A stretch of 26,368 nt of DNA from a virus, in IMG/VR virus record IMGVR_UViG_3300029914_001571, positions 1-26,368 of that record; one strand, 5' to 3'. Positions within the stretch are counted from its first letter, which is position 1, and each line of letters starts with the position of its first letter. Positions 3,529-25,550 of this stretch are shown in pieces. Under the pieces are notes generated by a model, which was not told the DNA's origin, ran no database searches, and saw nothing but the letters and a program-made list of their open reading frames with translations. Position numbers and translations under genes: made by a program.

Positions 3529-3536
3529 ATATATAT
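3529..3536 (+). promoter_or_regulatory. ATATATAT motif (late-type), first virion gene
   Basis: Lies directly after the terminator at 3488-3521 and 18 nt before the ATG at 3555. The same 18-nt gap occurs at 7595 and 10719. It should start transcription of the structural block if the motif is a promoter. Confidence 0.6.
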
Positions 3537-3554
3537 GTTATAAGCAAAAGAAAA

Positions 3555-4181
3555 ATGCAGCAAGTAAACTATATAAACCTTATTGACCTGTTTCAATACT
3601 TCACCAATAACCACCTTCAGTTACAAAGATACGGGAACGGGACACGACCAGAATTAGAAAGAATGATTGCAACCAGTCCAAGTTTTCCTTTAATGTGGTC
3701 TTATCTGGTTGACATTACTTATCCATACGACAATGTAAAGGTGTTCAATTTCACTATTATGGTTATGGAAATTATGGATAATTCACAGGTAAATGAAGCT
3801 GACATCTGGAATGATTCAGTTATGATATTGGAAGACTTTATAAAGTTCCTTCAATGGAATAGTTCAACTTATTACCGTGTTGAATTTGGTGGTCAATTAC
3901 AAATATCGCCTTTCACTGAACGTTTTACTGAATATTGTGCGGGTGCATCTTTACAAATAAAGATTGAAGTTGACTTTGACGGAATGAATAATTGTGGAAT
4001 TGCAGGTATTGAATTTCCGTTCACACTTCCAACAATCAATTACACCAGTGATGAACCGACTGAAGATAATTTACCATTGGAAGGAAATTATATTTCTGGT
4101 GGAAATGATATTGTATTTGATGAAGAACAATTAAGTGGAATATTCAATTATCTGTCAGCAGGATTTGACATCGTAGAATAA
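3555..4181 (+). CDS. Bacteroidetes-phage structural protein, neck or tail-terminator candidate
   Basis: A 208-aa soluble protein. The central part (about residues 35-110) contains a proline/tryptophan segment (S-F-P-L-M-W-S-Y), followed by a region around E-I-M-D-N-S and a helix I-W-N-D-S-V-M-I-L-E-D-F. It is followed by P-F-T-E-R-F, a segment with C-A-G-A-S, and an acidic C-terminal tail. I recall this pattern from conserved proteins upstream of tail genes in Bacteroidetes phages, where a head-tail joining or tail-terminator role is likely; this is a family-level impression. It is the first gene of the tail block and is followed within 9 nt by the chaperone-like gene. The ATG at 3555 fits the motif spacing. 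Confidence 0.65.
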   Translation: MQQVNYINLIDLFQYFTNNHLQLQRYGNGTRPELERMIATSPSFPLMWSYLVDITYPYDNVKVFNFTIMVMEIMDNSQVNEADIWNDSVMILEDFIKFLQWNSSTYYRVEFGGQLQISPFTERFTEYCAGASLQIKIEVDFDGMNNCGIAGIEFPFTLPTINYTSDEPTEDNLPLEGNYISGGNDIVFDEEQLSGIFNYLSAGFDIVE

Positions 4182-4190
4182 AATTAAATT

Positions 4191-4823
4191 ATGAATATGA
4201 AAACAATAACAGGATGGAAGGATATATCAACCAAACAATACATTCAGCTTTACAACTTAAAAGAAGATGATGATTTTGAAATGATTTTAAAACAAATCGG
4301 TATCATCTATGAAATGTCACAAGATGAAGTTGAAAATATTCCTTTGTCAGAATTCAACCAGATAAAAAATGATATTGCTTTTATGGCATATCAACCTGAA
4401 CAATATAATCTGAAGAAGGAAATTGTTGTTGAAGGTAAAAAATATCTTCTTCAGGATTTGGATAAACTTACATTAGGTGAATGGGCGGACTTGGAATCAT
4501 ATAATGGTGATTGCATCAATAACCTTCATTCAATTATGGCTGTGTTATACAGAAAGGAAGGTATAACAAAATATATTCCATCTGAAGTGGATGATGCAGC
4601 GCAATTATTTTTGGACAAAGTTGATATTGAAACCACATTGGCAGCTTTTTTTTTGTTTTATCTTTTCGGACTGAACTTTATTCAGTCAGATATAAAGGAT
4701 TGTTCTATGTTCCAGAAGGTGGAAATGGAGATGAAGAAGAAGGAAGTGAAGAAGCTAATAACGAAAGGAAAACAATTGCTGAACAAAGACAGGAAGACCA
4801 AGAAAAAGCTGCACAAAGTTTAG
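4191..4823 (+). CDS. Tail assembly chaperone-like protein (zero-frame product)
   Basis: A 210-aa ORF lying between a neck-like gene and an HK97-gp10-like gene, the usual place of phage tail assembly chaperones (lambda G/GT-type). The N-terminus (W-K-D-I-S-T-K-Q-Y-I-Q-L) and the central segment K-L-T-L-G-E-W-A-D-L-E fit the acidic, helical chaperones I associate with Bacteroidetes phages. After a run of nine T residues at 4646-4654 the -1 frame stays open to 4981. Near the end of this ORF (from about 4710) the -1 frame has the typical GNN/A-T-ending codons of the genome, while the zero frame becomes rich in codons ending in G. The true C-terminus may therefore lie in the other frame, by programmed frameshift, mutation or sequencing error. 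Confidence 0.7.
   Translation: MNMKTITGWKDISTKQYIQLYNLKEDDDFEMILKQIGIIYEMSQDEVENIPLSEFNQIKNDIAFMAYQPEQYNLKKEIVVEGKKYLLQDLDKLTLGEWADLESYNGDCINNLHSIMAVLYRKEGITKYIPSEVDDAAQLFLDKVDIETTLAAFFLFYLFGLNFIQSDIKDCSMFQKVEMEMKKKEVKKLITKGKQLLNKDRKTKKKLHKV
4646..4654 (+). other. T9 slippery tract, candidate -1 frameshift site
   Basis: Nine consecutive T residues, read in the zero frame as GCT TTT TTT TTG, contain the heptamer T TTT TTT at 4646-4652. Slippage of -1 here joins residues 1-154 of the chaperone-like ORF to 109 further codons. A second, lambda- or dnaX-like candidate is G AAA AAG at 4802-4808, four codons before the zero-frame stop. An extra T in the true sequence would have the same effect. Confidence 0.5.
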
Positions 4824-4981
4824 TCTGGTTGAACATCATTGATACCTTATCACAAGGTGATGTTTTAAAACAAAACGCTGTAACTGAATTGCCCCTTATC
4901 CAGTGCTTTAATAAGCTTGTGTTGGATAAATCTTTACCGAATAGTTACAACAATCAATTGCTATCAAAACAATTTTCATAA
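4652..4981 (+). CDS. -1 frame extension of the tail chaperone (GT-like) or separate gene
   Basis: An open -1 frame overlaps the end of the chaperone-like gene and continues about 160 nt past it. Its sequence has an acidic stretch (G-D-E-E-E-G-S-E-E) followed by a well-formed segment, W-L-N-I-I-D-T-L-S-Q-G-D-V-L, and P-L-I-Q-C-F-N-K-L. The codon pattern from about 4710 looks clearly coding. If joined by -1 slippage at the T9 tract the fusion would be 263 aa, parallel to lambda gpGT, which bridges tube subunits and tape measure. Without a shift the only early start is TTG at 4700. The stop is 15 nt before the next gene. Confidence 0.6.
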   Translation, partial: FVLSFRTELYSVRYKGLFYVPEGGNGDEEEGSEEANNERKTIAEQRQEDQEKAAQSLVWLNIIDTLSQGDVLKQNAVTELPLIQCFNKLVLDKSLPNSYNNQLLSKQFS

Positions 4982-4985
4982 GGAC

Positions 4986-4993
4986 ATATATAT
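4986..4993 (+). promoter_or_regulatory. ATATATAT motif (late-type), 3 nt before a start
   Basis: The motif ends three bases before the ATG at 4997. If it is a -10-like element, the transcript would start at or inside the start codon, so either this mRNA is leaderless or the motif has a different role here. Confidence 0.45.
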
Positions 4994-4996
4994 GAT

Positions 4997-5455
4997 ATGG
5001 ACTTAAAGAAATTAGATGAAGTAATAAATAAGTTTGGTGAAGCTTTTATCAATAAGATGAAAGATGAATTGGACGCAAATGGAAGTATTGCAACAGGTAC
5101 ATTAAAAGAATCATTGAACTATCAATTTGAAACAGATGTTGACCAGATAGTAATGAGATTTTTATCTGAAGATTATGGTCAATGGGTCGAGCAAGGTCGC
5201 AAATCTGGAACGTTCCCTAATGGTTATAATATACAAGCGTGGTGCGCAGTGAAAGGACTTCCTGAACGTGCTGCATTTCCGATAGCAAAGAACATATTTA
5301 AGTTTGGCATTCAACCTAAACCCTTTTTATTTCAGGACTTTGATTCTGTTAAGCAGGATTTTATTATTGCTCTAATGGCTGTTTATGGAAGTCTTGTGAA
5401 GATTGAAGTAAATGATATGATGAAAGAAATGTTACCAAGCAAAATTGAGATTTAA
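4997..5455 (+). CDS. HK97 gp10-like tail component / tail completion protein
   Basis: A 152-aa protein resembling the HK97-gp10/minor tail family, which helps join or terminate the tail tube. Typical signatures are the helical N-terminus (about 1-40) ending T-G-T-L-K-E-S-L, then Y-G-Q-W-V-E-Q-G-R-K-S-G (60-71), and the later A-K-N-I-F-K-F-G-I-Q-P-K-P-F-L motif (97-111). That order (Y..WV..G, then I...GI.P.PFL) is the family pattern. It lies just after the tail chaperone-like gene in a compact operon. The ATG at 4997 is used; another ATG at 4992 is in a different frame. Confidence 0.75.
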   Translation: MDLKKLDEVINKFGEAFINKMKDELDANGSIATGTLKESLNYQFETDVDQIVMRFLSEDYGQWVEQGRKSGTFPNGYNIQAWCAVKGLPERAAFPIAKNIFKFGIQPKPFLFQDFDSVKQDFIIALMAVYGSLVKIEVNDMMKEMLPSKIEI

Positions 5456-5456
5456 A

Positions 5457-5472
5457 ATATAGATAAGAAAGA
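5457..5472 (+). promoter_or_regulatory. Degenerate late-type motif (AATATAGATAAGAAAG)
   Basis: A weak variant of the ATATATATAAGAAAG extended motif seen in full at 16666, 18972 and 21213. It lies four bases before the ATG at 5476. It is listed because the shared AAGAAA tail is recognisable, but it lacks a full ATATATAT core. Confidence 0.3.
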
Positions 5473-5475
5473 AAA

Positions 5476-7572
5476 ATGAACAACCCAACTATAACATATT
5501 TCCCGTTTTCAGCTTATACCGTTCCTGTATATCCAGTGTACAATGACCAGACTATTCTTGTTACATCATCAACCAGTTCAAGATATTCTTATAAGCTGTT
5601 ATCAGACGTGTATATAAACGGGCAAGATGTAGCAACCTTAAAGAACTATCCTTTCAATGGAGTAATAGAAGTGAATCCGCAAAACATAACAATGAATTAT
5701 TTGCTTCACGACTTCAATTATTCGGCTTCACCAATAAATGATAATTATGATTCGGTTAAAAGTGTTTATACAGTATTAGGCGAAGAATATTCAAGAACAA
5801 TATCATTTTCTTCTATCACCAGTTTCTTTGGTTATGCTGTATTAAATTTAACCATACCGACAATAGCGCAAACCTATGATATGGTTCAGGTAAATATTGG
5901 AACACAATCTATCATTGGTGAAGTATCAATTGCATCTTCAACAGGTATATTAACCAATATTCCCTATTCAATGTTTACTTCAACAGGAAGTGGAACAACA
6001 GTTGAAGGGGCGCAATACTTTGATTATGATTATAACGGATTCCATACGACAAACCCACACAATTTCAATGTAGGTGATACGGTATTATTACAAATGAATA
6101 GTTGGTCAACAGGTACAATTGTTGCAACAGGTGGAACATCTGGAAGTATCACACAAGTTAGCATTGGTGGAACAAACTTATTATCAAGTTCAGTGCCCTT
6201 TGATACAAACCTTGCAACAACTATGTTGAATTTGGCTAATGCTATTTCATTGAACTATTCAACAACAGGTGGTTATTCTGCTTATGTTGATTCTGGTTCT
6301 GAAATTATGCACGTTTATTCATCAATGTTTAATGGTGCTGCAACAAACGGTTTATCTATTGTCATTACATCAACAGGAAGTTTAGCTTTTTCAGTTACAC
6401 CTTCTATGTATATCAATGCAGGATATGATTCAAACGGGCAAGGTTGGAATCCACAATTGAGCGGACAATATACTATTGCAACCGTTCCAACATCAACATC
6501 ATTTACCACTGTTGAACCTATCACTGAATATTACAGCAATCAAACAGGTTCAGAGCGTGGAATGTGGTATGATTTGAACAACTATGTATTTACAAATCTT
6601 GTCACTGGTGGAACATACTATGTAATGAACAACGGTAATTATTATTTATATCCTGATTATGCTACAACGGTTGAACAACATACTTTTGAAGAACAACTTA
6701 TTTCAAATCAACCAAAAGGATTATTTCTAACAAATAAGCCAAGAACAAGTTTTGAATTCTATTCAAACAATGATATTGAAACGGTGGATTTGCTTTGGGA
6801 AGTAAATTATAACGGTGGTACTTATAACAGTGGAAACCAACAAGGCTTTTATTTAAGAGTATATACTGGAACAAGTTCATCTTATAGCTTATACTTTATT
6901 GACATAGCACACGTAACATCTGGATTCACAGGTTCAGATATTTGGAAAAGATTTTCATTCGGTGTTGGGGCGTGGAACTTAAATAATATACCACATCAAT
7001 ATATTACACCGACCCCTTCAGGTGATTTAATTAATAACAACGTATATCAATATCAAATAGCTTGTAACAATGGTTTGTTTCAAGGAAATTATTCTGAACT
7101 ATTAACGTTCAATAAGCAGTGTTCAAACTATGACTACTATCAGTTAATCTTCCTGAACAAGTGGGGTGCTTTTGATTATTTCCCACTGAACGCAAACTTT
7201 GAAAATGATTTGACCGTATCAAGAACACAATACGACCGTAAACGTGAATCAATATTTAGTCCTACACAATATGGCGTTCGTGTTCCAGACAGGGGAAAAA
7301 CAGACTTCTATATTAATTCTGATATGCAGGTTAAACTTTATTCTGATTGGTTGACCTTAGATGAATCAAATTGGTTAATGGAAGTGTATGAATCACCACA
7401 AGTTTATTTGTATTGTCCTAATGATGCAAGTTCAGATTCAATAGACTTTACTTGCTTATATCCAATCAACATAATTGATACAGAAATAAGACAGTTCAAC
7501 CAACGTTCCAGAATGAAACAAATGGTGTTCACTGCATTGGTATCAAATCAAAGAATTAATCAAAAGAATTAA
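5476..7572 (+). CDS. Large tail / baseplate structural protein (698 aa)
   Basis: A 698-aa protein rich in Ser, Thr, Tyr, Asn and Gly and predicted to be mainly beta-structured, with no signal peptide, as expected for a virion protein. The last ~180 residues (from about 515) have the segment F-L-N-K-W-G-A-F-D-Y-F, then R-K-R-E-S and L-T-L-D-E-S-N-W-L-M-E-V-Y-E-S-P-Q-V-Y-L. I recall this block from distal-tail or baseplate-like proteins of Bacteroidetes phages. The N-terminal half looks like repeated beta domains, with S-T-G-x-G turns and a Val/Gly-rich centre at about 170-340. It precedes a second giant tail protein. Exact role unknown; a receptor-contacting tail tip is possible. Confidence 0.72.
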   Translation: MNNPTITYFPFSAYTVPVYPVYNDQTILVTSSTSSRYSYKLLSDVYINGQDVATLKNYPFNGVIEVNPQNITMNYLLHDFNYSASPINDNYDSVKSVYTVLGEEYSRTISFSSITSFFGYAVLNLTIPTIAQTYDMVQVNIGTQSIIGEVSIASSTGILTNIPYSMFTSTGSGTTVEGAQYFDYDYNGFHTTNPHNFNVGDTVLLQMNSWSTGTIVATGGTSGSITQVSIGGTNLLSSSVPFDTNLATTMLNLANAISLNYSTTGGYSAYVDSGSEIMHVYSSMFNGAATNGLSIVITSTGSLAFSVTPSMYINAGYDSNGQGWNPQLSGQYTIATVPTSTSFTTVEPITEYYSNQTGSERGMWYDLNNYVFTNLVTGGTYYVMNNGNYYLYPDYATTVEQHTFEEQLISNQPKGLFLTNKPRTSFEFYSNNDIETVDLLWEVNYNGGTYNSGNQQGFYLRVYTGTSSSYSLYFIDIAHVTSGFTGSDIWKRFSFGVGAWNLNNIPHQYITPTPSGDLINNNVYQYQIACNNGLFQGNYSELLTFNKQCSNYDYYQLIFLNKWGAFDYFPLNANFENDLTVSRTQYDRKRESIFSPTQYGVRVPDRGKTDFYINSDMQVKLYSDWLTLDESNWLMEVYESPQVYLYCPNDASSDSIDFTCLYPINIIDTEIRQFNQRSRMKQMVFTALVSNQRINQKN

Positions 7573-7594
7573 GGGAGACTTTTTTTCTGGATTC

Positions 7595-7602
7595 ATATAT
7601 AT
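7595..7602 (+). promoter_or_regulatory. ATATATAT motif (late-type), 18 nt before a start
   Basis: Lies in the 48-nt gap between the two giant tail genes, 18 nt before the ATG at 7621. It is preceded by a T-rich run (7580-7587) without a convincing hairpin. Confidence 0.55.
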
Positions 7603-7620
7603 CTACAATAAGGATAGAAA

Positions 7621-10497
7621 ATGAATACAGAAATAATTTTAACCGACCAGAATACAGGCACACAGTTCAATTTAGACTTAACTGAAGATACCGATATTCT
7701 ATTAACCTTTCAATGTGGTGATGTAAGACAAGTTTTAAGTTCAAAATCTTCATATTCTAAGACTGTATCTATAATGGGTACATCAAATAATAACCAAGCG
7801 TTCAGCAATCTATTTGACATAAGGAACTATTCAGACTTCAACCCGAATAAGAAGGCTTCAGTGGTCGTAAAAAGCGGTGGTGTAAGTATATTTGAAGGTT
7901 ATTTGAAGGTGGATTCTATCAAGATAAACAATAGGAATCTTATTACTTATGAATGTTCAATGTATAACAATGTTGCAGACCTATTTACTGAACTGTCAAC
8001 ACTTAGATTAAACCAACTTTCATTTCAGGAATATAACCACGTTTACAGCAAGTCGGCTGTTACAGGTAGTTGGAATACATTTATTGTCTACAACGGGCAA
8101 GAAACGTCTGCAAAAGCAGGATTCGGCTATGTTTACCCTTATGTTGATTTAGCAACAGATACTTCTTTGACAAATATCAAATACACAGAGTTTTTTAAAC
8201 CTCACTTTTACGCTAAAACTATTTTGGACAAGGTATTTGCACAAACCAACTATTCATATAAATCTGACTTCCTGAATTCAGACTATTTCAAAAGTTTAAT
8301 TGTTACTCCATCACCAGATTCATTTACACTATGTGCGCAAACGGTAACAAATTCGCAGCTTTGGGCAAGTCAAGAAATTGATGATTCAGATTATGAACAA
8401 ACATTGTTATCCAGATTTGAAAGTTTCACCCAAACACCTGCAACAAATGTTCCTTCTTCTTCACCAGTAAGATGTGAATCATTATCGCCACATATTTATG
8501 ACAGGGGATTATTTGGATTCTTGAATGTACCTAATACAACTGTTGGTGGTCGTTATGACTATGGACATAACTTAAATCTAACAAATTTCACCTATACAGT
8601 TCCAGTTACAGGATATTATGATATTGTTGCAAACTTCAATCTTGACTTTGCAATAAGCAATAATAATTATGGTTCGTATGCTGTAATCCCAGGTCTTCAT
8701 ATTCTATCTGAATATGGTTATGTATGTGCCATTGAAGTTACAGGTGCTACATTAAACCAATTCGGTTATCATCCTATTTATGATTTGGTGGTTCAAACAT
8801 TAAGTGGAACATATGATTCAGTATTTTATGCTAATGACCAGATGCAGGGAGCAATGAATAATGGTGGTGTTTCACCAAACTTCAACTTCAATTCAGGTAT
8901 TCCTTACTTCTTTAGTCAGGGGGATATGATAAACGTTAGTGTTTTTGTGGATTATAAATTAAATGACATAGAAGAATTTTGTGATAAAGACTTTTATGAT
9001 TTTATACCAAGAATAGATTTTTGGGAAATAACACCTTCAGATTTGAAAATACAGTTAATGGATAATCAGATGCACGAAGGAATGCCGTGGAATTTCTTAA
9101 ACTACATTTCCAGTGACCAGTGCGATGATTATATTCTTACACTTGCTAAGATGTTCAACCTATATTTTGAATTTGATTCCACACAAGACAACACTTTAAT
9201 TATTGAACCATTTAATTCATTCTATAACGGAAATGTTATTGATTGGACTTATAAATTAGATAGAAGTAATGAAATAGAAATCATTCCTATGTCTGACATC
9301 ACCAATGAAAGGTTGCATTTCCTTTATAGAAATGATTCTGACTACTGGAACAATAAATATCAAACTGAAAACATAAGCAAAAACAAATTTTCCTTACTAT
9401 CTCAGTTAACATATGGTGAATACACTTGGTATTTTGATAATGATTTCATAGACCAAGCTTCAGAGGACAAAATTGATTTGATTTTTGCCCCTACTCCCCT
9501 TGTTCAAGACTTCTATTATACTAATGCAATATCAGGTGGAACATATTCTTCATCAACAAAGATAATTTCAACCGCATATCAGGAAGCCTTTGATAATACA
9601 ACTGGAAATATTACCAAATCACCATTGAATTCATTTGCACCCCGTATTTTGTTCTATAATGGTCTTATACCTTGTGATAGTTGGGGAATGTATGATTATA
9701 ACCTTTCGGTTAATAAAAGTCTTTATGTTGCCTTTATTGACGAATATTCAGCTAACACGTCAATGTATTCTGGATTTACGGATTTTCCACACAATACATT
9801 GAATGTTTATCCTTATGCAGGTCACTTAGATAATCCATATACACCAAATCAAGATTTGAATTTCAATTTTCCTGCTGAATATTTTTATTCCCGTACAGCA
9901 GTGACCACAAACAACCTTTTTAATCAATACTGGTTTGATGCAGTTCAGCAAATGGACGACCCTTCAGCTAAATTAATGACTGCATACTTCTATTTGACCA
10001 CTGTTGATATACAAAGTTTATCATTCAGGAACATAATTTATTTGGACGGGTCTTATTGGATAATAAATCAGATAATGGATTATTCACCTTTAGATGATGG
10101 ACTTACTCAGGTGGAATTACTGAAGTTGATAAACTATAATCAAACAAAAAATGATGTTACTGCAAAACAACAAACAATAAACGTCCAAGCAAATTCAAAA
10201 CGTTATAAAAGTTTGGGTGGAAATAGTCATAATGATTCAATTATTGGTGCAATAAATACGGCTGCATTACAACCACCGACCAGAAATATTATTACTGGAA
10301 CATTCAATAGTATAGACCCTTCTTCTAATGGAAATATTATTGTTGGAGACGTGAATTATATTCAACCGAATACAAAGAATGCACTTATAGTAGGGAGCGG
10401 TTCAGGACTTGATTCAAATACAGTAATTCAATCTGGTGGAATCAATTCACGTAACGTAAATATGATTGGTTCTACTGGTGTAATATCTCACAATTGA
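7621..10497 (+). CDS. Giant tail / baseplate protein (958 aa to an in-frame TGA)
   Basis: A 958-aa protein. The N-terminus has the pattern V-L-S-S-K-S-S-Y-S-K-T-V-S-I followed by N-N-x-Q-A-F-S-N-L-F-D-I (about 40-67), which I associate with conserved tail or baseplate proteins of Bacteroidetes phages. The middle is beta-rich and aromatic; residues ~450-600 include Y-I-S-S-D-Q-C-D-D-Y-I-L-T-L-A-K-M-F-N-L-Y-F. From about 860 on there is a Gly/Asn/Ile-rich stretch, N-I-I-T-G-T-F-N-S-I and related turns, like a beta-helical stalk. The ORF ends at TGA 10495-10497, but the same frame continues for 73 coherent codons to a TAA at 10717. The apparent C-terminus is therefore suspect. Confidence 0.78.
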   Translation: MNTEIILTDQNTGTQFNLDLTEDTDILLTFQCGDVRQVLSSKSSYSKTVSIMGTSNNNQAFSNLFDIRNYSDFNPNKKASVVVKSGGVSIFEGYLKVDSIKINNRNLITYECSMYNNVADLFTELSTLRLNQLSFQEYNHVYSKSAVTGSWNTFIVYNGQETSAKAGFGYVYPYVDLATDTSLTNIKYTEFFKPHFYAKTILDKVFAQTNYSYKSDFLNSDYFKSLIVTPSPDSFTLCAQTVTNSQLWASQEIDDSDYEQTLLSRFESFTQTPATNVPSSSPVRCESLSPHIYDRGLFGFLNVPNTTVGGRYDYGHNLNLTNFTYTVPVTGYYDIVANFNLDFAISNNNYGSYAVIPGLHILSEYGYVCAIEVTGATLNQFGYHPIYDLVVQTLSGTYDSVFYANDQMQGAMNNGGVSPNFNFNSGIPYFFSQGDMINVSVFVDYKLNDIEEFCDKDFYDFIPRIDFWEITPSDLKIQLMDNQMHEGMPWNFLNYISSDQCDDYILTLAKMFNLYFEFDSTQDNTLIIEPFNSFYNGNVIDWTYKLDRSNEIEIIPMSDITNERLHFLYRNDSDYWNNKYQTENISKNKFSLLSQLTYGEYTWYFDNDFIDQASEDKIDLIFAPTPLVQDFYYTNAISGGTYSSSTKIISTAYQEAFDNTTGNITKSPLNSFAPRILFYNGLIPCDSWGMYDYNLSVNKSLYVAFIDEYSANTSMYSGFTDFPHNTLNVYPYAGHLDNPYTPNQDLNFNFPAEYFYSRTAVTTNNLFNQYWFDAVQQMDDPSAKLMTAYFYLTTVDIQSLSFRNIIYLDGSYWIINQIMDYSPLDDGLTQVELLKLINYNQTKNDVTAKQQTINVQANSKRYKSLGGNSHNDSIIGAINTAALQPPTRNIITGTFNSIDPSSNGNIIVGDVNYIQPNTKNALIVGSGSGLDSNTVIQSGGINSRNVNMIGSTGVISHN

Positions 10498-10719
10498 AAA
10501 GAACTAATCACTTTCAATAATGGTAATGTAAATATTGCAGGAACAACCATACAGGCAATAAATGAAGTTCAGGCGGGTGTAAACGAAGTAATGAGTGAAT
10601 TTCCTGAAGCCACATTGATAAATTTCATTTCAGCAGGGAACGATAAAGTAAGGGGTGTTGGTTCATCTACTCTTATAAACATAATTTCAGCAGGGAGCGA
10701 TAATATTTTATCTAGTTAA
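10498..10719 (+). other. In-frame continuation of the giant tail gene beyond TGA
   Basis: Directly after the TGA, the same frame stays open for 73 codons (beginning KELITFNNGN, ending DNILSS) and then meets TAA. The segment has the composition of the preceding stalk, includes an internal near-repeat (TLIN-x-ISAG-x-D twice, 22 residues apart), and has no alternative gene start of its own. The next gene begins only after an ATATATAT motif that overlaps this second stop. This fits a recent nonsense change (for example GGA, CGA or TGG to TGA), stop readthrough or a base-call error. Confidence 0.7.
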
Positions 10720-10726
10720 TATATAT
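10719..10726 (+). promoter_or_regulatory. ATATATAT motif (late-type), 18 nt before a start
   Basis: Overlaps the TAA that ends the continuation frame (10717-10719) and lies 18 nt before the ATG at 10745. The placement argues that the upstream gene originally ended at 10719. Confidence 0.55.
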
Positions 10727-10744
10727 CTCTAAACAAAATAACCT

Positions 10745-12238: not shown

Positions 12239-13107
12239 TACCCATCATTCACAGTCCATATAATAGCTGCATCTATACATCTTTTTGGAACTTGAGTCAC
12301 TGAAGTAGCATTGCTATCAGTAAATATATAGTAACTATCCTGTGTTTCTTTAACTAGATAAAGTTTTTTTGTAGTTATAGATTGATTAGTATCAAGTGGC
12401 ATTAAAATTCCAAAAATTGTTGTGTTCCTATACGCTTTGGGTAAAATTAACTTTATTATTAATGGTTCTCCACCTGCAATATTTGCTGGCAAAAATTTAT
12501 ATACAGTGTTAGTATAAGTCATTGTTACGAAAGAAATACACATTATCCAAAATACTGCTTTAAATCCGTTTCTAAACAAAGATGAAGGCATTATTTCTTC
12601 TCTGAGAGCAAGAACATTATTTGGTAATAATAGAAACATTCTGTTTGTTCCATTGGTGAGAAATCCAATAACTGTATTAATTATTATAAGATAAACAAAG
12701 CCTTTTAAAGGCTCAGGATGTCTTTTACCATCCCCAAATAAATTATTAAGCAAAACAAATAGTATTAAGCAAAATACAATCCAAGCACAAACAAACATTA
12801 AGACTTCTAAAATTACCTTTTGAAGGAATTTATGTCTTTTTAAACTCAACCGATTTCGTAAGTTCTTTATTACTAACTGTTGTTTAATTACCAAAAACGG
12901 CAAAGAGCTTAAAAAGATAATTATAGAAAACATTCCGCCAGTCAATATATATTGAGGGTAGAGAAAGTCGAAGACAAAAATTCCTTTTGAAAAATAAAAT
13001 TCCAAGGTTATTATTAAACCTAATGTATAGAGTATCCCGCCAATATAAATGATATACTTTAAAATCTCTTTTGCATCATATTCTTCTTTATTAGTTTTTA
13101 ATTCCAT
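12235..13107 (-). CDS. Multi-pass membrane protein of unknown function (moron candidate)
   Basis: A 290-aa integral membrane protein on the strand opposite to all the virion genes around it. Hydrophobic spans lie at about 18-38, 53-75, 99-122, 136-153 and 183-200, separated by basic loops (e.g. K-N-L-R-N-R-L-S-L-K-R-H-K at 81-93). The last ~75 residues (212-290) look like a soluble domain with L-Y-L-V-K-E-T-Q-D-S-Y-Y-I-F. It interrupts the fibre-to-tape-measure gene order, shares 4 bp with the fibre gene's stop and has its own upstream region with TATATATTAA on its strand. This is typical of morons expressed from the prophage for lysogenic conversion or superinfection exclusion. That role is inferred; I do not recognise the family. 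Confidence 0.75.
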   Translation of the reverse strand: MELKTNKEEYDAKEILKYIIYIGGILYTLGLIITLEFYFSKGIFVFDFLYPQYILTGGMFSIIIFLSSLPFLVIKQQLVIKNLRNRLSLKRHKFLQKVILEVLMFVCAWIVFCLILFVLLNNLFGDGKRHPEPLKGFVYLIIINTVIGFLTNGTNRMFLLLPNNVLALREEIMPSSLFRNGFKAVFWIMCISFVTMTYTNTVYKFLPANIAGGEPLIIKLILPKAYRNTTIFGILMPLDTNQSITTKKLYLVKETQDSYYIFTDSNATSVTQVPKRCIDAAIIWTVNDGY

Positions 13108-13166
13108 AGTCAGTATTAATATATAGCAATATACGAAATAAGTGTCACGATTAAAATCACCAGTGG

Positions 13167-13174
13167 ATATATAT
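13167..13174 (+). promoter_or_regulatory. ATATATAT motif inside GGATAT...ATATCC palindrome
   Basis: Here the motif forms the left part of a wider inverted repeat, GGATAT (13165-13170) and ATATCC (13181-13186), placed just before the tape measure ATG at 13188. The arrangement might serve as an operator. The divergent reverse gene begins 60 bp to the left. Confidence 0.5.
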
Positions 13175-13187
13175 CATAAAATATCCA

Positions 13188-15701: not shown

Positions 15702-15720
15702 TAAAATTCTATCTGGTTAA

Positions 15721-15728
15721 ATATATAT
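15721..15728 (+). promoter_or_regulatory. ATATATAT motif (late-type), 6 nt before a start
   Basis: Lies in the 33-nt gap between the tape measure and the prohead protease gene, six bases before the ATG at 15735. The short distance would imply a nearly leaderless transcript if it is a promoter. Confidence 0.48.
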
Positions 15729-15734
15729 AGGTAT

Positions 15735-16658: not shown

Positions 16659-16665
16659 GCCAATA

Positions 16666-16673
16666 ATATATAT
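16666..16673 (+). promoter_or_regulatory. ATATATAT motif with AAGAAAG tail (late-type)
   Basis: The extended form of the motif (ATATATATAAGAAAG) begins eight bases after the protease stop and lies 23 nt before the ATG at 16697. The same tail recurs at 18972 and 21213. Confidence 0.55.
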
Positions 16674-16696
16674 AAGAAAGAAAATAAAAATCATCT

Positions 16697-17236: not shown

Positions 17237-17270
17237 TAAATAAGAACCTTCCAAATATTTCTTCATCAAA

Positions 17271-17278
17271 ATATATAT
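17271..17278 (+). promoter_or_regulatory. ATATATAT motif before the major capsid gene
   Basis: The motif lies 35 nt before the capsid ATG at 17314. Two bases after it comes a four-codon frame (ATG AAA AAA CTA TAA, 17281-17295) that could act as a short leader peptide. This leader is longer than at the other late-type sites with a close ATG. Confidence 0.55.
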
Positions 17279-17313
17279 AAATGAAAAAACTATAAAACAA
17301 AAAGAACATCCCT

Positions 17314-18297: not shown

Positions 18298-18315
18298 TAA
18301 TAAATAGAAAACGTG

Positions 18316-18347
18316 AAGAAGGGAGTTTGAAAAGACTTCCTTCTTTT
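18316..18347 (+). terminator. 13-bp GAAA-tetraloop hairpin after the capsid gene
   Basis: A 13-bp stem (18316-18328 with 18333-18345, two G-T pairs) closes a GAAA loop and ends with only a short T-rich tail. It could be a weak terminator, or a stable hairpin protecting the capsid transcript from 3' decay. No late-type motif lies between it and the tail tube gene, so readthrough must be sufficient for that gene unless another promoter exists. Confidence 0.75.
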
Positions 18348-18381
18348 GAATAAAAAAGAACTTAAATAAATAATAAAAACA

Positions 18382-18903: not shown

Positions 18904-18932
18904 TAATAATTAACATCATTATCCAATAATTG

Positions 18933-18964
18933 AATCCTTATCAAACCGATAAGGATTTTTTTTT
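18933..18964 (+). terminator. Intrinsic terminator after the tail tube gene
   Basis: A 10-bp perfect stem (18933-18942 with 18948-18957) with a 5-nt loop is followed by a run of T residues ending at 18964. It closes the capsid / tail tube unit. Confidence 0.92.
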
Positions 18965-18971
18965 GTCAGGG

Positions 18972-18979
18972 ATATATAT
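18972..18979 (+). promoter_or_regulatory. ATATATAT motif with AAGAAA tail, straight after a terminator
   Basis: Lies eight bases after the tail tube terminator and 14 nt before the ATG at 18994. Because a strong terminator precedes it, a new transcription start is needed here, which supports the promoter reading of the motif. Confidence 0.62.
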
Positions 18980-18993
18980 AAGAAACGAATTCG

Positions 18994-19311
18994 ATGATAA
19001 CATTCTATCAAGGCAATACAGGCAATACATTTGCAACAACATTTTCTGAACGTTTGAACTTATACAACATTCAATATATCACTGGTGCAACTTTTTATTT
19101 TAAACTGGTTAATGATATGACCAGACAGAATTATTTTTTCAGCGCAACAGATGAAAGTGTTGCGCCCTTCAGATATAATCAGTTTATTGTTGATGAAACA
19201 ACATTGAATTTATCCAATGGTCAATACACCTATTACGGATATGCAGATTCGGCATATACACAAAGCTTAGAAGTAGGAAGGCTTTTAGTTAGCGGGGCAT
19301 CTTCAAACTAA
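18994..19311 (+). CDS. Small virion or neck protein candidate (105 aa)
   Basis: A 105-aa soluble protein predicted to be a small beta sandwich. It has the ordered pattern T-F-A-T-T-F-S-E-R, then T-G-A-T-F-Y-F-K-L-V-N-D and, near the end, L-S-N-G-Q-Y-T-Y-Y-G-Y-A-D ending G-R-L-L-V-S-G. A comparable small G-Q-Y-x-Y protein occurs next to structural genes in several Bacteroidetes phages, as I recall. It is located between the tail tube and portal genes, so a head-tail joining or decoration role is possible. Not otherwise recognised. Confidence 0.6.
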   Translation: MITFYQGNTGNTFATTFSERLNLYNIQYITGATFYFKLVNDMTRQNYFFSATDESVAPFRYNQFIVDETTLNLSNGQYTYYGYADSAYTQSLEVGRLLVSGASSN

Positions 19312-19327
19312 TATTTACTCTTAAATA

Positions 19328-19335
19328 ATATATAT
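19328..19335 (+). promoter_or_regulatory. ATATATAT motif before the portal gene
   Basis: The motif lies 26 nt before the ATG at 19362 and runs directly into a perfect palindrome (GGTTATAACC at 19336-19345), so it might be paired with an operator. Confidence 0.55.
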
Positions 19336-19360
19336 GGTTATAACCTTAATGATTATAACC
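19336..19360. repeat. GGTTATAACC palindrome and GATTATAACC direct copy
   Basis: A perfect 10-bp palindrome GGTTATAACC (19336-19345) is followed after 5 nt by GATTATAACC (19351-19360), one base different. Two half-symmetric copies 15 bp apart between motif and start look like a protein-binding site, though the portal ATG follows at once, so a role in translation is also possible. Confidence 0.45.
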
Positions 19361-19361
19361 A

Positions 19362-20588
19362 ATGAAAATATTCGGAATGAATTTCGGTTCAACACAAAAA
19401 GTTGAACAACCAATAACACCAACACATAAAGCTGTATTAGATAATGGCTGGCAAAAGGTGATGGACACAGTAAATTTTGCTTTGCAAAATGAATATATAC
19501 CACCTACTGCATCATATATAGTTGGTGCAAATGGAATGGTTAAGTGGGGACACGATAACTTATTTCCGCTCCAATTAGCCGACTTACTTAATAGTTCACC
19601 AATGCACCAGTCCATCATAAAAATGAAATCTGATTTGGTCACTGGTTCAGGAATACAATTCAAAAATTATTCTGGTCTTACACCTGAACAACAAACTGAA
19701 CTTACAAAGTTTGTGAATGTTGCAGACGGTTGTGATAAGTCATTAAGTGATGTAGCAAGTGAACTATCCTTAGACTTTCAAATATTCGGTGCAATGGCAT
19801 TAGAAGTTATTTGGGACTTAACGTTTACCAAGATTATAAAGATTAATAGAATACCAATGGTTAACCTTCGTATGCACGAAGAAAATGCTATTGGTAAAAT
19901 TGAAAAGTTCTACTTCAATAAAAATTGGACACGACCTAATCAATACGGGACATATGAAATACCCGCATTCAATATTAGTGATAGAACAAACACCAATCAA
20001 TTATTGTACATAAAGAATCCTTCAGTTGATGGAAGATATTACGGTGTTCCTGCTTATTCAAGTGGTTTAAATTGGGTTGCAGCAGATGCAGCCATAAGCA
20101 AGTTCCACTTATCAAATATCAGTCACGGTATGGCTCCAAGTTTGAAAATACAGTTTTATAAAACTTATGATTCACCTGAACAAAGGGATGAAATAGTTAG
20201 AGGTATAGAAAGACAATACGCTTCACAACATAATGCAGGACGTGCAATGATATTTTTCAGTGATGGAAAAGATTATGCACCTTCTATTGAACCTATTCAA
20301 GTAAACAATATTGATAAGCAATTTGTGACCATAGCAAACCAAATAGTTCAGCAAATACTTCGTGCTCACAGGGGTGTTAGTGGTGTTCTATTCGGTATAT
20401 CTACATCAAATAATAAACTGTCATTACAAGGTGAATATGAAAATGCGTTCAAAATATTCACACAAATAGTTGTTGCACCCGATAGAAAGATTTTGGAAAA
20501 TGTATTGAACAAGGTTCTTAAACTAAATGGTATTGATGCAGGATTATATTTTGACCAGATTCAAATATTCAATGGAGCAATAGGATAA
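19362..20588 (+). CDS. Portal protein
   Basis: A 408-aa protein of portal size, forming the DNA channel and head-tail connector at one capsid vertex. It has features expected of phage portal proteins of the PBSX/HK97 group: an early segment with P-L-Q-L-A-D-L-L-N-S-S-P (about 67-80), S-I-I-K-M-K-S-D-L-V-T-G-S-G (84-97), and a wing-region F-Q-I-F-G-A-M-A-L-E-V-I-W. These are followed by the acidic and aromatic core with W-V-A-A-D-A-A-I-S-K-F-H and the C-terminal G-V-S-G-V-L-F-G-I-S and F-K-I-F-T-Q-I-V-V-A-P. Its location downstream of the major capsid gene is unlike the common portal-protease-capsid order. Confidence 0.85.
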   Translation: MKIFGMNFGSTQKVEQPITPTHKAVLDNGWQKVMDTVNFALQNEYIPPTASYIVGANGMVKWGHDNLFPLQLADLLNSSPMHQSIIKMKSDLVTGSGIQFKNYSGLTPEQQTELTKFVNVADGCDKSLSDVASELSLDFQIFGAMALEVIWDLTFTKIIKINRIPMVNLRMHEENAIGKIEKFYFNKNWTRPNQYGTYEIPAFNISDRTNTNQLLYIKNPSVDGRYYGVPAYSSGLNWVAADAAISKFHLSNISHGMAPSLKIQFYKTYDSPEQRDEIVRGIERQYASQHNAGRAMIFFSDGKDYAPSIEPIQVNNIDKQFVTIANQIVQQILRAHRGVSGVLFGISTSNNKLSLQGEYENAFKIFTQIVVAPDRKILENVLNKVLKLNGIDAGLYFDQIQIFNGAIG

Positions 20589-21212: not shown

Positions 21213-21223
21213 ATATATATATA
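21213..21223 (+). promoter_or_regulatory. Extended ATATATATATA motif with AGAAA tail before the holin
   Basis: The longest alternating run in the window (11 bases), ending four bases before the holin ATG at 21228. It shares the AAGAAA tail with the sites at 16666 and 18972. Confidence 0.5.
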
Positions 21224-21227
21224 AGAA

Positions 21228-21668: not shown

Positions 21669-21669
21669 T

Positions 21670-21960: not shown

Positions 21961-21971
21961 TGTATTTCTAT

Positions 21972-21979: not shown

Positions 21980-22056
21980 TTTAAGATTTTCATTAATCCA
22001 AAAATAGGGAATCCGGGCCAGGACCGGAAATTTATCTATGTAGGTAGAATCCTAAC

Positions 22057-22095
22057 AAAAAAAGTTTGTTCCCGCTCTTGACAAAACTTTTTTTT
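22057..22095 (+). terminator. A/T-rich terminator-like hairpin
   Basis: Seven A residues and GTTTGT (22057-22069) pair with ACAAAAC and the following T run (22081-22095), with one bulged A and an 11-nt loop. It has the A-tract, stem and T-tract of an intrinsic terminator and would isolate the downstream unit at 22135. Confidence 0.7.
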
Positions 22096-22134
22096 GAACT
22101 AAGATTGATATAACGGAAAAAGAATTTTTTCCTA

Positions 22135-22142
22135 CTATTTAA
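22135..22142 (+). promoter_or_regulatory. CTATTTAA motif (early-type) in TTTTTTCCTA context
   Basis: Preceded by TTTTTTCCTA like the site at 24721, and placed 11 nt before a GTG that opens a 28-codon frame. It follows a terminator-like hairpin, so a new transcript is expected here. Confidence 0.5.
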
Positions 22143-22153
22143 AAAAGGTAGCT

Positions 22154-22240
22154 GTGATAGCTATACTATTATATCAGTCAAAAAGACATCTGGAAGCAGT
22201 GGTTGATTACATCAACAAAGGAGAACAAAAGGAGTAAAGC
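22154..22240 (+). CDS. Small ORF (28 aa) with GTG start, tentative
   Basis: A 28-codon ORF opening with GTG (peptide M-I-A-I-L-L-Y-Q-S ... I-N-K-G-E-Q-K-E) and ending inside the left part of a strong hairpin. The gap of 11 nt to the CTATTTAA motif is the same as for two larger genes, which is the main support. It may be a leader peptide, a small membrane-active peptide, or chance; the transcript could equally be a small RNA. Confidence 0.35.
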
Positions 22241-22265
22241 CCGATAGGTTTCTCCTTTGTCTTTT
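22215..22265 (+). terminator. Hairpin with short T-rich tail after the small ORF
   Basis: ACAAAGGAGAAC (22215-22226) pairs with GTTTCTCCTTTGT (22248-22260), with one bulged base, followed by CTTTT. The stem is about 12 bp with a long loop of about 21 nt. It would end a short transcript started at 22135-22154, about 100 nt long. Confidence 0.6.
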
Positions 22266-22295
22266 ATCCAGTTCTTTACTATTTTCAAATGATAT

Positions 22296-22424
22296 GCACC
22301 CAAACTGCCCGAAGCAAGGTATGAACCAAATATTTGAACGTGTGTTCAAATGGCTTTGTATGCTACCAGTGAGCAATCCTAAATTAGCCAATTAGGAATT
22401 TTAAAATAGTTTGTGGGTGGGTGC
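22296..22424 (+). ncRNA. Candidate structured RNA element (unassigned)
   Basis: Several nested inverted repeats fold into a closed, branched structure. The closing stem pairs CACCCAAACT (22297-22306) with AGTTT and GGGTG (22408-22419), with a 2-nt bulge. Inside lie a short stem (22314-22319 with 22354-22359), a perfect 8-bp hairpin ATTTGAAC-GTGT-GTTCAAAT (22332-22351) and an 8-bp bulged hairpin TCCTAAATT-AGCC-AATTAGGA (22377-22397). The element matches no riboswitch or RNA class that I recognise. A 33-codon frame also crosses it (22294-22395), so the coding alternative is open. Strand is assumed. Confidence 0.4.
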
Positions 22425-22688
22425 GAAATTTTATAAGCGTAATATTCAATTTCCTTCCTGAATGTTCATCAATATTTTTTACTGAATTGTATTCTTTTAT
22501 TTATTCCTGTATTTGAATTTGAAATTATGCAAACGTAGTGCGCAGTTTTTATTTAATAATAAATCTAAACGCTCGGAGAGCAAACACTATATCTATCATT
22601 TGTCCTACGGACGTTTGATTTTATCCTTCACTTAATTATTATAAATACATTTTTTCTTTTCTGAATTTGGAATATTATTTTTTTCTAT

Positions 22689-22696
22689 CTATTTAA
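22689..22696 (+). promoter_or_regulatory. CTATTTAA motif (early-type), 15 nt before a start
   Basis: Preceded by a T-rich tract (TTTTTTTTCTAT) and placed 15 nt before the ATG at 22712, the same gap as at 2772 and 24721. Confidence 0.55.
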
Positions 22697-22711
22697 ATTA
22701 AACCTGAATAG

Positions 22712-23200
22712 ATGAAAACGAATTTGACCGCCGAAACTTTAACCAGAACATTCCAAGAAAATGAACTTCAATTCTTGAATTTATTATTTCCTAATTCAGG
22801 ATATACTATTACTGAACAATTCAGCCGACAAGATGCAATTCATAATAAGTATAAACTAATCATTGAAGTTAAGGTTAGAGAGTTCAGTCAAGAATATTTT
22901 GATGATAAATTCAATGGTGAATTTTTAATAGAGAAAGAAAAGTATGATGAACTAATACTTGCTTCAAAAAAGTTAAACTATACACCACTTTACATATTCG
23001 GGTTCAAACCAAAATATTCACATAAGATAGAAGGATATTCAGCAATTAATTTTAATAAGCTGTCTTTATCTGGTCTATCTATTCAAAAAAGAATGTGTCC
23101 AAAATCACAATGGAATAAAACACTGGTTGAAAAAGACTGCTATATAATTCCCAACAAGCTTTTAAATAAGGAAAACCAACTAACAAGAATCTTCAGATAA
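22712..23200 (+). CDS. PD-(D/E)XK-like nuclease
   Basis: A 162-aa protein. The N-terminal helix (about 8-26) is followed by a beta-hairpin with Asp41 and the strand L-I-I-E-V-K-V-R-E (49-57), giving the D...E-x-K signature (Asp41, Glu52, Lys54) of the PD-(D/E)XK nuclease fold. Other conserved-looking residues are Q36 and R39 before the Asp. It could act as a Holliday junction resolvase or an endonuclease in DNA processing, but the substrate cannot be told from the sequence. The gene has its own CTATTTAA motif, and its stop codon overlaps the late-type motif of the following sigma-like gene. Confidence 0.68.
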   Translation: MKTNLTAETLTRTFQENELQFLNLLFPNSGYTITEQFSRQDAIHNKYKLIIEVKVREFSQEYFDDKFNGEFLIEKEKYDELILASKKLNYTPLYIFGFKPKYSHKIEGYSAINFNKLSLSGLSIQKRMCPKSQWNKTLVEKDCYIIPNKLLNKENQLTRIFR

Positions 23201-23207
23201 TATATAT
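23200..23207 (+). promoter_or_regulatory. ATATATAT motif overlapping the nuclease stop codon
   Basis: The motif uses the last base of the nuclease stop (TAA, 23198-23200) and ends inside the first possible ATG of the next gene (23206). The second ATG at 23212 lies four bases after it, matching the short gaps at 15721, 21213 and 25543. Confidence 0.5.
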
Positions 23208-23874
23208 GAGTATGATATTAGCTGAAATGATGGATAAAGGATTATCCTATGATGAATTCATTAATGAATACTTTGCTTCACACTATCAAGAATTGTGGAC
23301 TATAGCAAGTAAAAGTTGTAAGAATACAAACTTTGATTTATGTGACCTTGTTTCTGAATTATACATCTACTTAATAGATAATGAAGAAAAGATTCTTGGA
23401 CTGAAGAAAATAAAGAACAAGGATAGAACTTTAACCAGATTTTGCGGGACGTGGTGTTATAAACAAATAAGATATTATAAGGCAAATTCAGGTGATTCCA
23501 ACTTTAAAGGCAAGTTTCAAATTATCAGTGATAAAAAATCAATAACGAAAAAAGAGAAACAACATAAAGAAAGTGAAAACTGCCAAGTAACCGATATGTA
23601 TAAACCACACAAAGAAGGTTCAGAAGATAAATTATTTGATGATGTATTTCCTGAAGTTGATTTATATAGACCAATACTTGATTATGTAATACAACACGAA
23701 TTAAACGACCAAGAAAAAATATTGTATAAGCTGCATATCACCGAGGGAATGAATATGAAAAAGATAAAGGAACATATAGGTGGTAATTCTTCAGATTATA
23801 TCCTTTATGAAGCTTTACACCAGATGAAAGAAAAAATTAAAACAAAATGCAATGAACGAAGAAGAACCAATTGA
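23206..23874 (+). CDS. Second, divergent sigma-like factor
   Basis: A 222-aa protein (220 aa if translation starts at ATG 23212). Residues about 23-95 resemble sigma region 2 (E-L-W-T-I-A-S-K-S-C, then L-C-D-L-V-S-E-L-Y-I-Y-L, then F-C-G-T-W-C-Y-K-Q-I-R-Y-Y). Residues about 157-212 resemble region 4 (L-N-D-Q-E-K-I-L-Y-K-L-H, then I-K-E-H-I-G-G-N-S-S-D-Y-I-L-Y-E-A-L-H). The linker is Lys/Glu-rich. It is more divergent than the sigma factor at 2173 and could be the late-stage factor, similar in role to T4 gp55; this is a hypothesis. Its gene overlaps the next one by 23 nt. It might instead be another helix-turn-helix regulator. Confidence 0.6.
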   Translation: MSMILAEMMDKGLSYDEFINEYFASHYQELWTIASKSCKNTNFDLCDLVSELYIYLIDNEEKILGLKKIKNKDRTLTRFCGTWCYKQIRYYKANSGDSNFKGKFQIISDKKSITKKEKQHKESENCQVTDMYKPHKEGSEDKLFDDVFPEVDLYRPILDYVIQHELNDQEKILYKLHITEGMNMKKIKEHIGGNSSDYILYEALHQMKEKIKTKCNERRRTN

Positions 23875-24437: not shown

Positions 24438-24440
24438 CCA

Positions 24441-24695: not shown

Positions 24696-24720
24696 AAGTG
24701 CGGGTTTAGTTTTTTCCTAA

Positions 24721-24728
24721 CTATTTAT
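24721..24728 (+). promoter_or_regulatory. CTATTTAT motif (early-type), 15 nt before a start
   Basis: The flanks (TTTTTTCCTAA before, TTTAAAT after) closely match those of the site at 2772, and the gap to the ATG at 24744 is also 15 nt. This pair gives the best-preserved form of the element. Confidence 0.58.
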
Positions 24729-24743
24729 TTTAAATAATATAAA

Positions 24744-24836
24744 ATGACAATATTAAGTCAAGAACTAATCGCATTAGCAATTTTATCAATTGGAACTATT
24801 ATAGCTATTTTTTATAGTAGACGGAAAAACAAATAA
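24744..24836 (+). CDS. 30-aa single-span membrane micropeptide
   Basis: A 30-codon ORF encoding MTILSQ, a hydrophobic span of about 18 residues (E-L-I-A-L-A-I-L-S-I-G-T-I-I-A-I-F-Y) and a basic end (S-R-R-K-N-K). The form of a tiny membrane peptide with a positive tail, a well-placed CTATTTAT element 15 nt upstream and a 3-nt gap to the following ATG all support real translation. It resembles small holin-like or stress peptides in form only; function unknown. Confidence 0.6.
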   Translation: MTILSQELIALAILSIGTIIAIFYSRRKNK

Positions 24837-24839
24837 CCT

Positions 24840-25085
24840 ATGAAAACAAATACACTTTTATTAAAGACAATCCAAATGTTGATTAATGCTGAATTAAGGA
24901 AATCAGAAAATAAAACTGAAAGAATATTTTCAGAAGGAAGTCTTCTTATTAAACAACGTAAAAAGGTCTTAGAAAAGAAGAAAAGAATAAGTAAAATAAA
25001 ACAGCTTACTAAAAAAGGATTTAATGTAAAACAAATACATACGCTTACTGGTTACTCAATTCCACTAATCGTAAAAACAATTTAA
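24840..25085 (+). CDS. Small basic protein with helix-turn-helix-like C-terminus
   Basis: An 81-aa very basic protein. A helical N-terminus (1-20) is followed by a Lys/Arg-rich part (35-58) and a segment (52-81) with the form of a resolvase/Hin-type helix-turn-helix: L-T-K-K-G-F-N-V-K-Q-I-H-T-L-T-G-Y-S-I-P-L-I-V-K. It is likely a DNA-binding protein of the accessory region, perhaps a regulator of the motif sites. The gene begins three bases after the micropeptide stop and is followed by the next gene after 3 nt. Confidence 0.62.
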   Translation: MKTNTLLLKTIQMLINAELRKSENKTERIFSEGSLLIKQRKKVLEKKKRISKIKQLTKKGFNVKQIHTLTGYSIPLIVKTI

Positions 25086-25088
25086 CCT

Positions 25089-25526
25089 ATGAATGAAGAA
25101 ATAGAAGTTGTGGATTTTACACACGGTGAATATCCTTACGACCTGAACAAATGGTTTTGTAATTGTCCTGAAAATGCAATCAGATATTTCAAAGATGATG
25201 GAATAAGTTCAACTTATGGATTCGTTCAGATAGATGAAAATGGTGATTGGTTTAATATCAATAATGATGATGTTGCAATAATTGATAAAGGTGTCAAAGC
25301 TGTATATATTCATCTAAAAGAAAGTGACATTTTAAGGCAACTATACTTCATTGAAGAAAATTGTTCAGTAGAATTTAATCTTCTAAAAGGAAAAGAAGGT
25401 AAACCCAAATATTTTAAGATAGAAGATAAGTTGTATGATATATGTGATATTGAATCAACAAGAAAATACGGTAAAATTTATTCGTTAATAAACCACTACC
25501 AATTGAATAAAAATAATCCATTATAA
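25089..25526 (+). CDS. Hypothetical acidic protein before the endolysin
   Basis: A 145-aa protein that I do not recognise. It is acidic, with mixed alpha/beta character and aromatic-rich strands (W-F-C-N-C-P near 22-27, Y-G-F-V-Q-I near 43-48, V-Y-I-H-L-K near 72-77). No membrane span or signal peptide is present. The cysteines at 24, 26 and 91 do not form a clear metal site. It is the last gene of the accessory operon that starts at 24721. No function is proposed. Confidence 0.65.
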   Translation: MNEEIEVVDFTHGEYPYDLNKWFCNCPENAIRYFKDDGISSTYGFVQIDENGDWFNINNDDVAIIDKGVKAVYIHLKESDILRQLYFIEENCSVEFNLLKGKEGKPKYFKIEDKLYDICDIESTRKYGKIYSLINHYQLNKNNPL

Positions 25527-25542
25527 ACTTTTCCAACAGATA

Positions 25543-25550
25543 ATATATAT
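25543..25550 (+). promoter_or_regulatory. ATATATAT motif inside CAGAT...ATCTG palindrome before the endolysin
   Basis: The motif lies four bases before the ATG at 25555 and forms the centre of an inverted repeat (CAGAT at 25537-25541 and ATCTG at 25549-25553). As with the tape measure site, an inverted repeat wraps the motif. Confidence 0.55.

Follow-up and report, generated by a model that had tools for sequence, protein, structure and literature searches.

Why does the eight-base element ATATATAT recur immediately before genes in the virus record IMGVR_UViG_3300029914_001571, and what reads it? The window, the whole 26,368-base virus record analysed here, has the gene content of a Bacteroidetes-type temperate phage, including an integrase with Arm-DNA-bind_5 and Phage_int_SAM_5 domains, an extracytoplasmic function (ECF) sigma factor, an S78-type head protease, a portal, a tape measure, a holin, and a GH25 endolysin. 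The integrase domains and the kin of the phage point to Bacteroidetes as the host group. A sequence-only reading of this DNA had proposed that ATATATAT is a -10-only late promoter, similar in concept to that of T4 and read by one of two sigma-like proteins. We think it likely that a phage sigma factor, for which the product of the open reading frame (ORF) at 23206 is the likeliest candidate, reads about 13 late promoters whose -10-like core is ATATATAT, and that early genes have a separate class of element containing CTATTTA.

An AT-only element at gene starts

There are 16 ATATATAT hits in the window, forming 15 separate runs (the hits at 21213 and 21215 are a single run of five AT units). 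All 14 positions given in the sequence-only reading carry the exact 8-mer, and one more run, at 12945, had been omitted. Fourteen of the 15 runs adjoin gene starts, with the end of the run lying from 2 bases inside to 35 bases before the start codon; the copy at 10719 shares 1 base with an ORF and that at 23200 shares 3. In line with the earlier reading, which had noticed none there, no exact copy falls within an ORF counted as virion; the copy at 12945 sits in a minus-strand ORF and, being a palindrome, lies on that strand 11 nucleotides before an in-frame internal ATG.

The element is enriched against composition-matched shuffles, intergenic Markov models, and related genomes. Whole-window dinucleotide shuffles give 1.8 expected hits against the 16 observed, and 0 of 100 shuffles reach 16. 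Within intergenic DNA only (1,999 bases, 27.5% GC), the 14 runs compare with 0.49, 2.1, and 1.9 expected under Markov models of order 1, 2, and 3, whose maxima over 2,000 simulations each were 5, 9, and 9, so that none reached 14 (in the coding mask, the 39-codon ORF 2795-2914 was entered as 2794-2913, a shift of one base). Of 29 window genes, 13 have ATATATAT upstream; in 20 related low-GC records the figure is 22 among 764 genes (p=9e-12). This comparison drew on the 22 records below 46% GC among 28 loaded (the 30 records searched for sigma factors minus G006 and G021), a sister record being omitted only for the pairs G000/G001 and G023/G029. A simple dinucleotide repeat in an AT-rich genome could be functionless low-complexity or module-boundary sequence, a reading made very improbable by the composition and kin nulls, by conservation in the related contig G001, and by the lineage-specific, non-(AT)n boxes that occupy the same positions elsewhere (below).

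Two copies, at 3529 and 18972, had been said to follow strong terminators; terminator-like stems indeed end 15 and 13 bases upstream of them, and a third stem ends 18 bases before 2161. Such stems were scanned in window bases 1-19999, where as a class they show no clear excess (13 vs 8.7 expected, standard deviation 3.7). The AAGAAA tail noticed at 16666, 18972, and 21213 is present at all three.

The flank comparison covered 20 late sites from the window and G001, with 2161 and 12945 left out. Columns -15 to -10 are T-rich (66/120, p=5e-11; 48/102, p=9e-6 after dropping three T-run sites), and A is common at -17 (16 of the 20). No -35 word stood out at these sites. The description of a -10-only promoter agrees with this lack of a -35 word, but there is a T-rich block 10-15 nucleotides upstream, and an AAACAA or TAGAAAAA box is present in some relatives. 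The sites share with Bacteroidetes host sigma-A promoters their position before genes; unlike those promoters, they lack the TAnnTTTG -7 box (0 of 21 sites).

A perfect palindrome may also be an operator, here for a repressor or activator of the late genes, and a small helix-turn-helix-like ORF at 1431 has a G001 homolog. We regard this as unlikely: no separate promoter was seen beside ATATATAT, sigma70-type sites are not enriched in bases 1-19999 (89 vs 94.7 expected), and no TAnnTTTG occurs nearby.

The same genes in related phages

G001 (contig IMGVR 3300002307_000190, 27,365 bases) encodes a portal, protease, and capsid that are 58%, 65%, and 50% identical in amino acids to those of the window. 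It holds seven ATATATAT copies, all seven before late genes, on both strands and 11-29 bases ahead of the ATG. On one strand a copy precedes the gene before the large terminase (by 8 bases if a GTG is the start); no counterpart of this terminase was matched in the window. On the other strand, copies precede the portal, the homolog of w18994, the capsid, the scaffold, the protease, and the tape measure (w with a number, as in w4191 or w18382, is the window gene beginning at that coordinate). Six of the seven marked genes are orthologs of marked window genes, and the seventh has no match in the window. In more distant relatives ATATATAT is not repeated before genes in this way. Their (AT)4 runs are scarce and for the most part not before starts (L092 has one copy), and among the loci examined repeated exact ATATATAT before genes occurs in the window, in L002 (a near-identical fragment of it), and in G001. 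A search of genome contigs returned no close relatives of the window.

Other lineages have other boxes. Cluster B (8 records) has the box AAACAA-N12-TATATTTATAAA in front of genes that are the same or similar: the protease gene, that at the scaffold position, the w4191 homolog, and one encoding about 55 amino acids. The protease and scaffold-position junctions are therefore marked both in cluster B and, by ATATATAT, in the window. A recount with the two-box pattern ACAA-N12-WATATWTATAAA and a simpler rule gives 31 cluster B sites, with an ATG 2-16 nucleotides downstream in 30 and the remaining one at a record end; one further site is in G011. In the first count, 18 of 44 matches (in overlapping registers) were not near a called start, partly as copies in the sigma region and partly through gene-calling. 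Because the eight records are close kin, their sites are not independent across records; within each record they represent up to four different genes. The box occurs 3 times in bases 1-20000 of G026 (0.00 expected). In two further records the repeated box is TAGAAAAA-N12-CTATTATA, found upstream of the w4191 and w10745 homologs among other places; 3 of its 9 sites lack a called gene. In G013, TATAAATA is repeated upstream of 8 of the 33 genes, portal and sigma included (p=3e-6); this word is the T4 late consensus, as the sequence-only reading also gave it.

The cultured Nonlabens (Persicivirga) phages P12024S/L (Inhavirus) are also comparable. P12024S encodes portal, protease, and w18382 proteins related to those of the window, and its sigma-like hit is a gene annotated with Sigma-70 region 2. 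Unlike the window, it has a different box, no (AT)4 run, and no annotated integrase. Five AAACAA-N14/15-CGTTAATA sites occur in P12024S (0.03 expected). The gap to the annotated start is exactly 4 bases at all five, and also at a variant site that precedes the protease homolog. Most of the boxed genes carry only the annotation hypothetical; homology identifies the protease and a w20607 homolog among them, and the one at 3031 lies just before the portal gene. With the usual promoter geometry, a 4-base gap would place the start of transcription at or beside the AUG. Gaps of 3-7 bases at 4986, 15721, 21213, and 25543, and the copy at 23200, which runs into one ATG and ends 4 bases short of the following one, suggest the same leaderless arrangement in the window. 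Leaderless late mRNA would be unusual, since leaderless mRNAs make up only 5.5% in Flavobacterium psychrophilum, according to a passage of PMC9723704.

These gaps also bear on whether ATATATAT acts after transcription, as an unstructured AU-rich landing site for ribosomes in the leader. The boxes always lie near starts, the gap in P12024S is fixed at 4 nucleotides, and Bacteroidetes are described as lacking Shine-Dalgarno signals (in an excerpt of PMC6847099), all of which would suit a leader element. We nevertheless find this quite unlikely: the window gap ranges from 3 to 35 nucleotides, regulatory and small genes lack ATATATAT save at 2161 and 23200, some relatives have two-box signals with the upstream box 12-15 nucleotides further up, and three sites come after terminator-like stems.

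Candidate sigma factors and putative early elements

Two window ORFs resemble sigma factors. The 2173 protein has sigma regions 2 and 4 only, with Pfam r2, r4_2, and TIGR02937 above cut-off; 23206 matches TIGR02937 at E=1.8e-4, below cut-off. A sigma70-ECF model matches 27 of the 30 records searched, including the window (two matches) and G001, with only 4 above the family cut-off. A hidden Markov model (HMM) of the family sigma, built on 17 records, finds 26 of the 28 loaded records at E<1e-4, nine outside the training set, and misses G007 and G001; on the window it scores 23206 at E=7e-8 and 2173 at E=0.09. Thus 23206 best fits the family's sigma. Predicted structures of the two candidates are poor (predicted local distance difference test, pLDDT, of 55 and 46). 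We consider it plausible, as proposed earlier, that one of the two sigma-like proteins reads ATATATAT, 23206 being the better candidate. In P12024S a VRR-NUC ORF stands ahead of the sigma gene, as the ORF at 22712 does of 23206; because 22712 has no family match, we leave it unnamed.

It is possible, if doubtful, that the late promoters are instead read by ECF sigma 2173, or by host RNA polymerase with a phage activator. The 2173 protein is the sole sigma seen in both ATATATAT-bearing phages, the window and G001. Its gene, however, is preceded by a CTATTTA element in both, whereas 23206 has ATATATAT at its own start and groups with the sigma factors of those relatives in which boxes mark the same genes. 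With an HMM of the 2173 pair, no match in the other 26 records falls below E=0.04, although tblastn with 2173 finds relatives of 21-29% identity in six phage records from human faeces. Two of these are crAss-like (cr7_1 and cr124_1, about 29% and 28% identical), with genes annotated as sigma-W factor and genomes of about 100 kb, unlike the window. Queries with 2173 and 23206 had no close relatives among the viral contigs searched, nor had 23206 among the phage records.

The CTATTTA class is defined by TTTTT-N2..7-CTATTTA, found in 5 places in the window (12 overlapping matches vs 0.26 expected) and 7 places in G001 bases 1-20000 (13 matches vs 0.23 expected). Its elements lie mostly 10-48 bases ahead of ORFs, many of them small, and in the window these are mostly ORFs of the early region; two of the seven G001 places precede a methyltransferase-like gene (by eye) and a small gene in the structural region. 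At 2161 a CTATTTA element runs into ATATATAT, and the G001 sigma gene has CTATTTA alone, so site 2161 is probably an early promoter of this class. The proposal of late promoters is otherwise well supported by position, enrichment, the G001 junctions, and the other boxes before the same genes elsewhere; it fits 2161 less well.

In the scheme we favour, early genes, including ECF sigma 2173 and the 22712-23206 pair, would be transcribed from the CTATTTA class. A phage sigma, most likely 23206 and less likely 2173, would then take the host core RNA polymerase to ATATATAT sites before virion, terminase (as seen in G001), and lysis genes. Boxes ending 3-7 nucleotides before the ATG would yield leaderless or near-leaderless mRNA, and leaders elsewhere would be about 8-30 nucleotides. 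We infer promoter activity, timing, sigma pairing, and start points from the arrangement of the sequence.

Several observations weigh against this scheme. The 23206 protein has no Pfam or PHROG sigma match, and the G001 contig carries no homolog of it; window gene 24441, whose homolog opens that contig, is a few genes downstream of where 23206 sits. As a test, the shared junctions give a modest figure (6/6, with 11 marked among 18-20 hand-listed ortholog pairs, p=0.025-0.012), and ATATATAT in G001 alone reaches p=1.3e-4, or 0.22 corrected over its 8-mers. Five window-marked genes have G001 orthologs without an exact copy (2173, 4997, 7621, holin, endolysin), and genes 4191, 18382, and 20607 lack exact ATATATAT in both phages. 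Since the 8-mer is palindromic, its direction depends on its flanks; weak flanks are the tentative source of whatever direction it has. Many relatives with a sigma-like gene have no private upstream 8-mer, and none of the six high-GC relatives exceeds the maximum of its 12 simulated sets, so the link between sigma and motif is incomplete. Autoregulation through cluster B copies upstream of the sigma gene was considered and dropped, as these copies sit in the preceding reading frame.

Among known systems, T4 late promoters have an 8-bp TATA box and a -35 region that is not conserved (PMC2988020). In T4 that box lies about one turn ahead of where transcription begins. The window lineage is like T4, where gp55 acts with gp33 and the clamp gp45, in its 8-bp AT-only box before late genes, the lack of a detectable -35 word, and the proposed phage-encoded specificity factor. 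It departs from T4 in two respects: its sigma candidates look like ECF sigmas (TIGR02937), and a -35-like box is present in other lineages of the family. The earlier comparison with T4 therefore suits the window lineage and not the whole family, part of which resembles ECF-type two-box promoters; given the T-rich block and the AAACAA or TAGAAAAA boxes of relatives, we keep it as a functional analogy only.

ECF sigma factors recognize promoters with an AAC-type -35 box. An AAC-type -35 with a CGT-type -10 is present in P12024S and at none of the window sites. Flavobacterial ECF promoters include an SM6 class with CGT in the -10 region (PMC9723704). The P12024S AAACAA-N14/15-CGTTAATA sites are like these, as are the sigma-like genes in matching the sigma70-ECF model; the window boxes differ in having no CGT or clear -35, and the sigma is phage-encoded.

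Whether these phages form a widespread Bacteroidetes tailed-phage clade with a core ECF-like sigma, and late promoters that vary by lineage yet stand before the same genes, many of them leaderless, seems to us evenly balanced on present comparisons. Searches of open-access full texts turned up neither late promoters nor a core sigma described for this clade. If the scheme is true, natural sigma-promoter pairs have diverged at homologous genes, making the evolution of promoter specificity testable; the cultured P12024S and its flavobacterial host allow a direct bench test, including of leaderless late mRNA without Shine-Dalgarno signals.

Feature coordinates and further observations

Table 1. 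Candidate elements and sigma-like genes in the window (gap, bases to the start codon)
Feature	Position	Strand	Context
ECF-type sigma factor gene	2173..2760	+	43% identical to G001 gene
Diverged sigma-like gene	23206..23874	+	candidate ortholog of the sigma seen across the family
ATATATAT fused to CTATTTA box	2161..2168	+	before ECF sigma gene 2173; probably early, not late
Putative late promoter -10-like element	3529..3536	+	before 3555 gene, after terminator-like stem 3488-3513
Putative late element	4986..4993	+	before 4997 gene, gap 3; no exact copy at G001 ortholog, ATATAAATATG nearby
Degenerate candidate ATATAGATAAGAAAG	5457..5464	+	before 5476 gene; G001 ortholog has AATATAGATGG; by eye, in no count
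Putative late element	7595..7602	+	before 7621 gene; absent at G001 ortholog
Putative late element	10719..10726	+	before 10745 gene
Extra ATATATAT copy	12945..12952		within minus-strand ORF 12235-13107
Putative late element	13167..13174	+	before tape measure gene 13188; also in G001
Putative late element	15721..15728	+	before protease 15735; also in G001; other boxes here in cluster B and P12024S
Putative late element	16666..16673	+	before scaffold-position gene 16697; also in G001; other box in cluster B
Putative late element	17271..17278	+	before major capsid candidate 17314, gap 35; also in G001
Putative late element	18972..18979	+	before 18994, after terminator-like stem 18932-18958; also in G001
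Putative late element	19328..19335	+	before portal 19362; also in G001
Putative late element, (AT)5	21213..21222	+	before holin 21228; absent at G001 ortholog
ATATATAT element	23200..23207	+	at start of second sigma-like gene; possible autoregulation
Putative late element	25543..25550	+	before GH25 endolysin 25555, gap 4; absent at G001 ortholog
Second motif class	2143-2161	+	runs into ATATATAT at 2161, before ECF sigma gene 2173
Second motif class	2762..2778	+	16 nucleotides before 39-codon ORF at 2795
Second motif class	22125..22141	+	in 22.0-22.7 kb region; no ORF of 30 codons within 150 nucleotides
Second motif class	22678..22695	+	16 nucleotides before 22712 gene, upstream of 23206
Second motif class	24710..24727	+	16 nucleotides before 30-codon ORF at 24744

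The minus-strand ORF 12235-13107, hydrophobic by eye, lies among tail genes and has no clear G001 homolog (best E 0.066). A query with the window capsid had no close relative among phage records. Between ATATATAT and the capsid gene start, a mini-ORF (ATG AAA AAA CTA TAA) occupies 17281-17295. The portal leader contains an inverted repeat at 19335-19361, between ATATATAT and the start codon, that was listed as terminator-like on the minus strand. About 700 bases of the window (21994-22711) have no called gene and contain one CTATTTA element, and may be a noncoding RNA or regulatory region. Among the relatives, G004 (L107/L108) has a private upstream motif, CCAGAAAA, before 7 of 37 genes (1 of 791 elsewhere), and L059 (G023) and L021 (G014) repeat AATGACTT and GAAAAA..CTTAATATA before genes.

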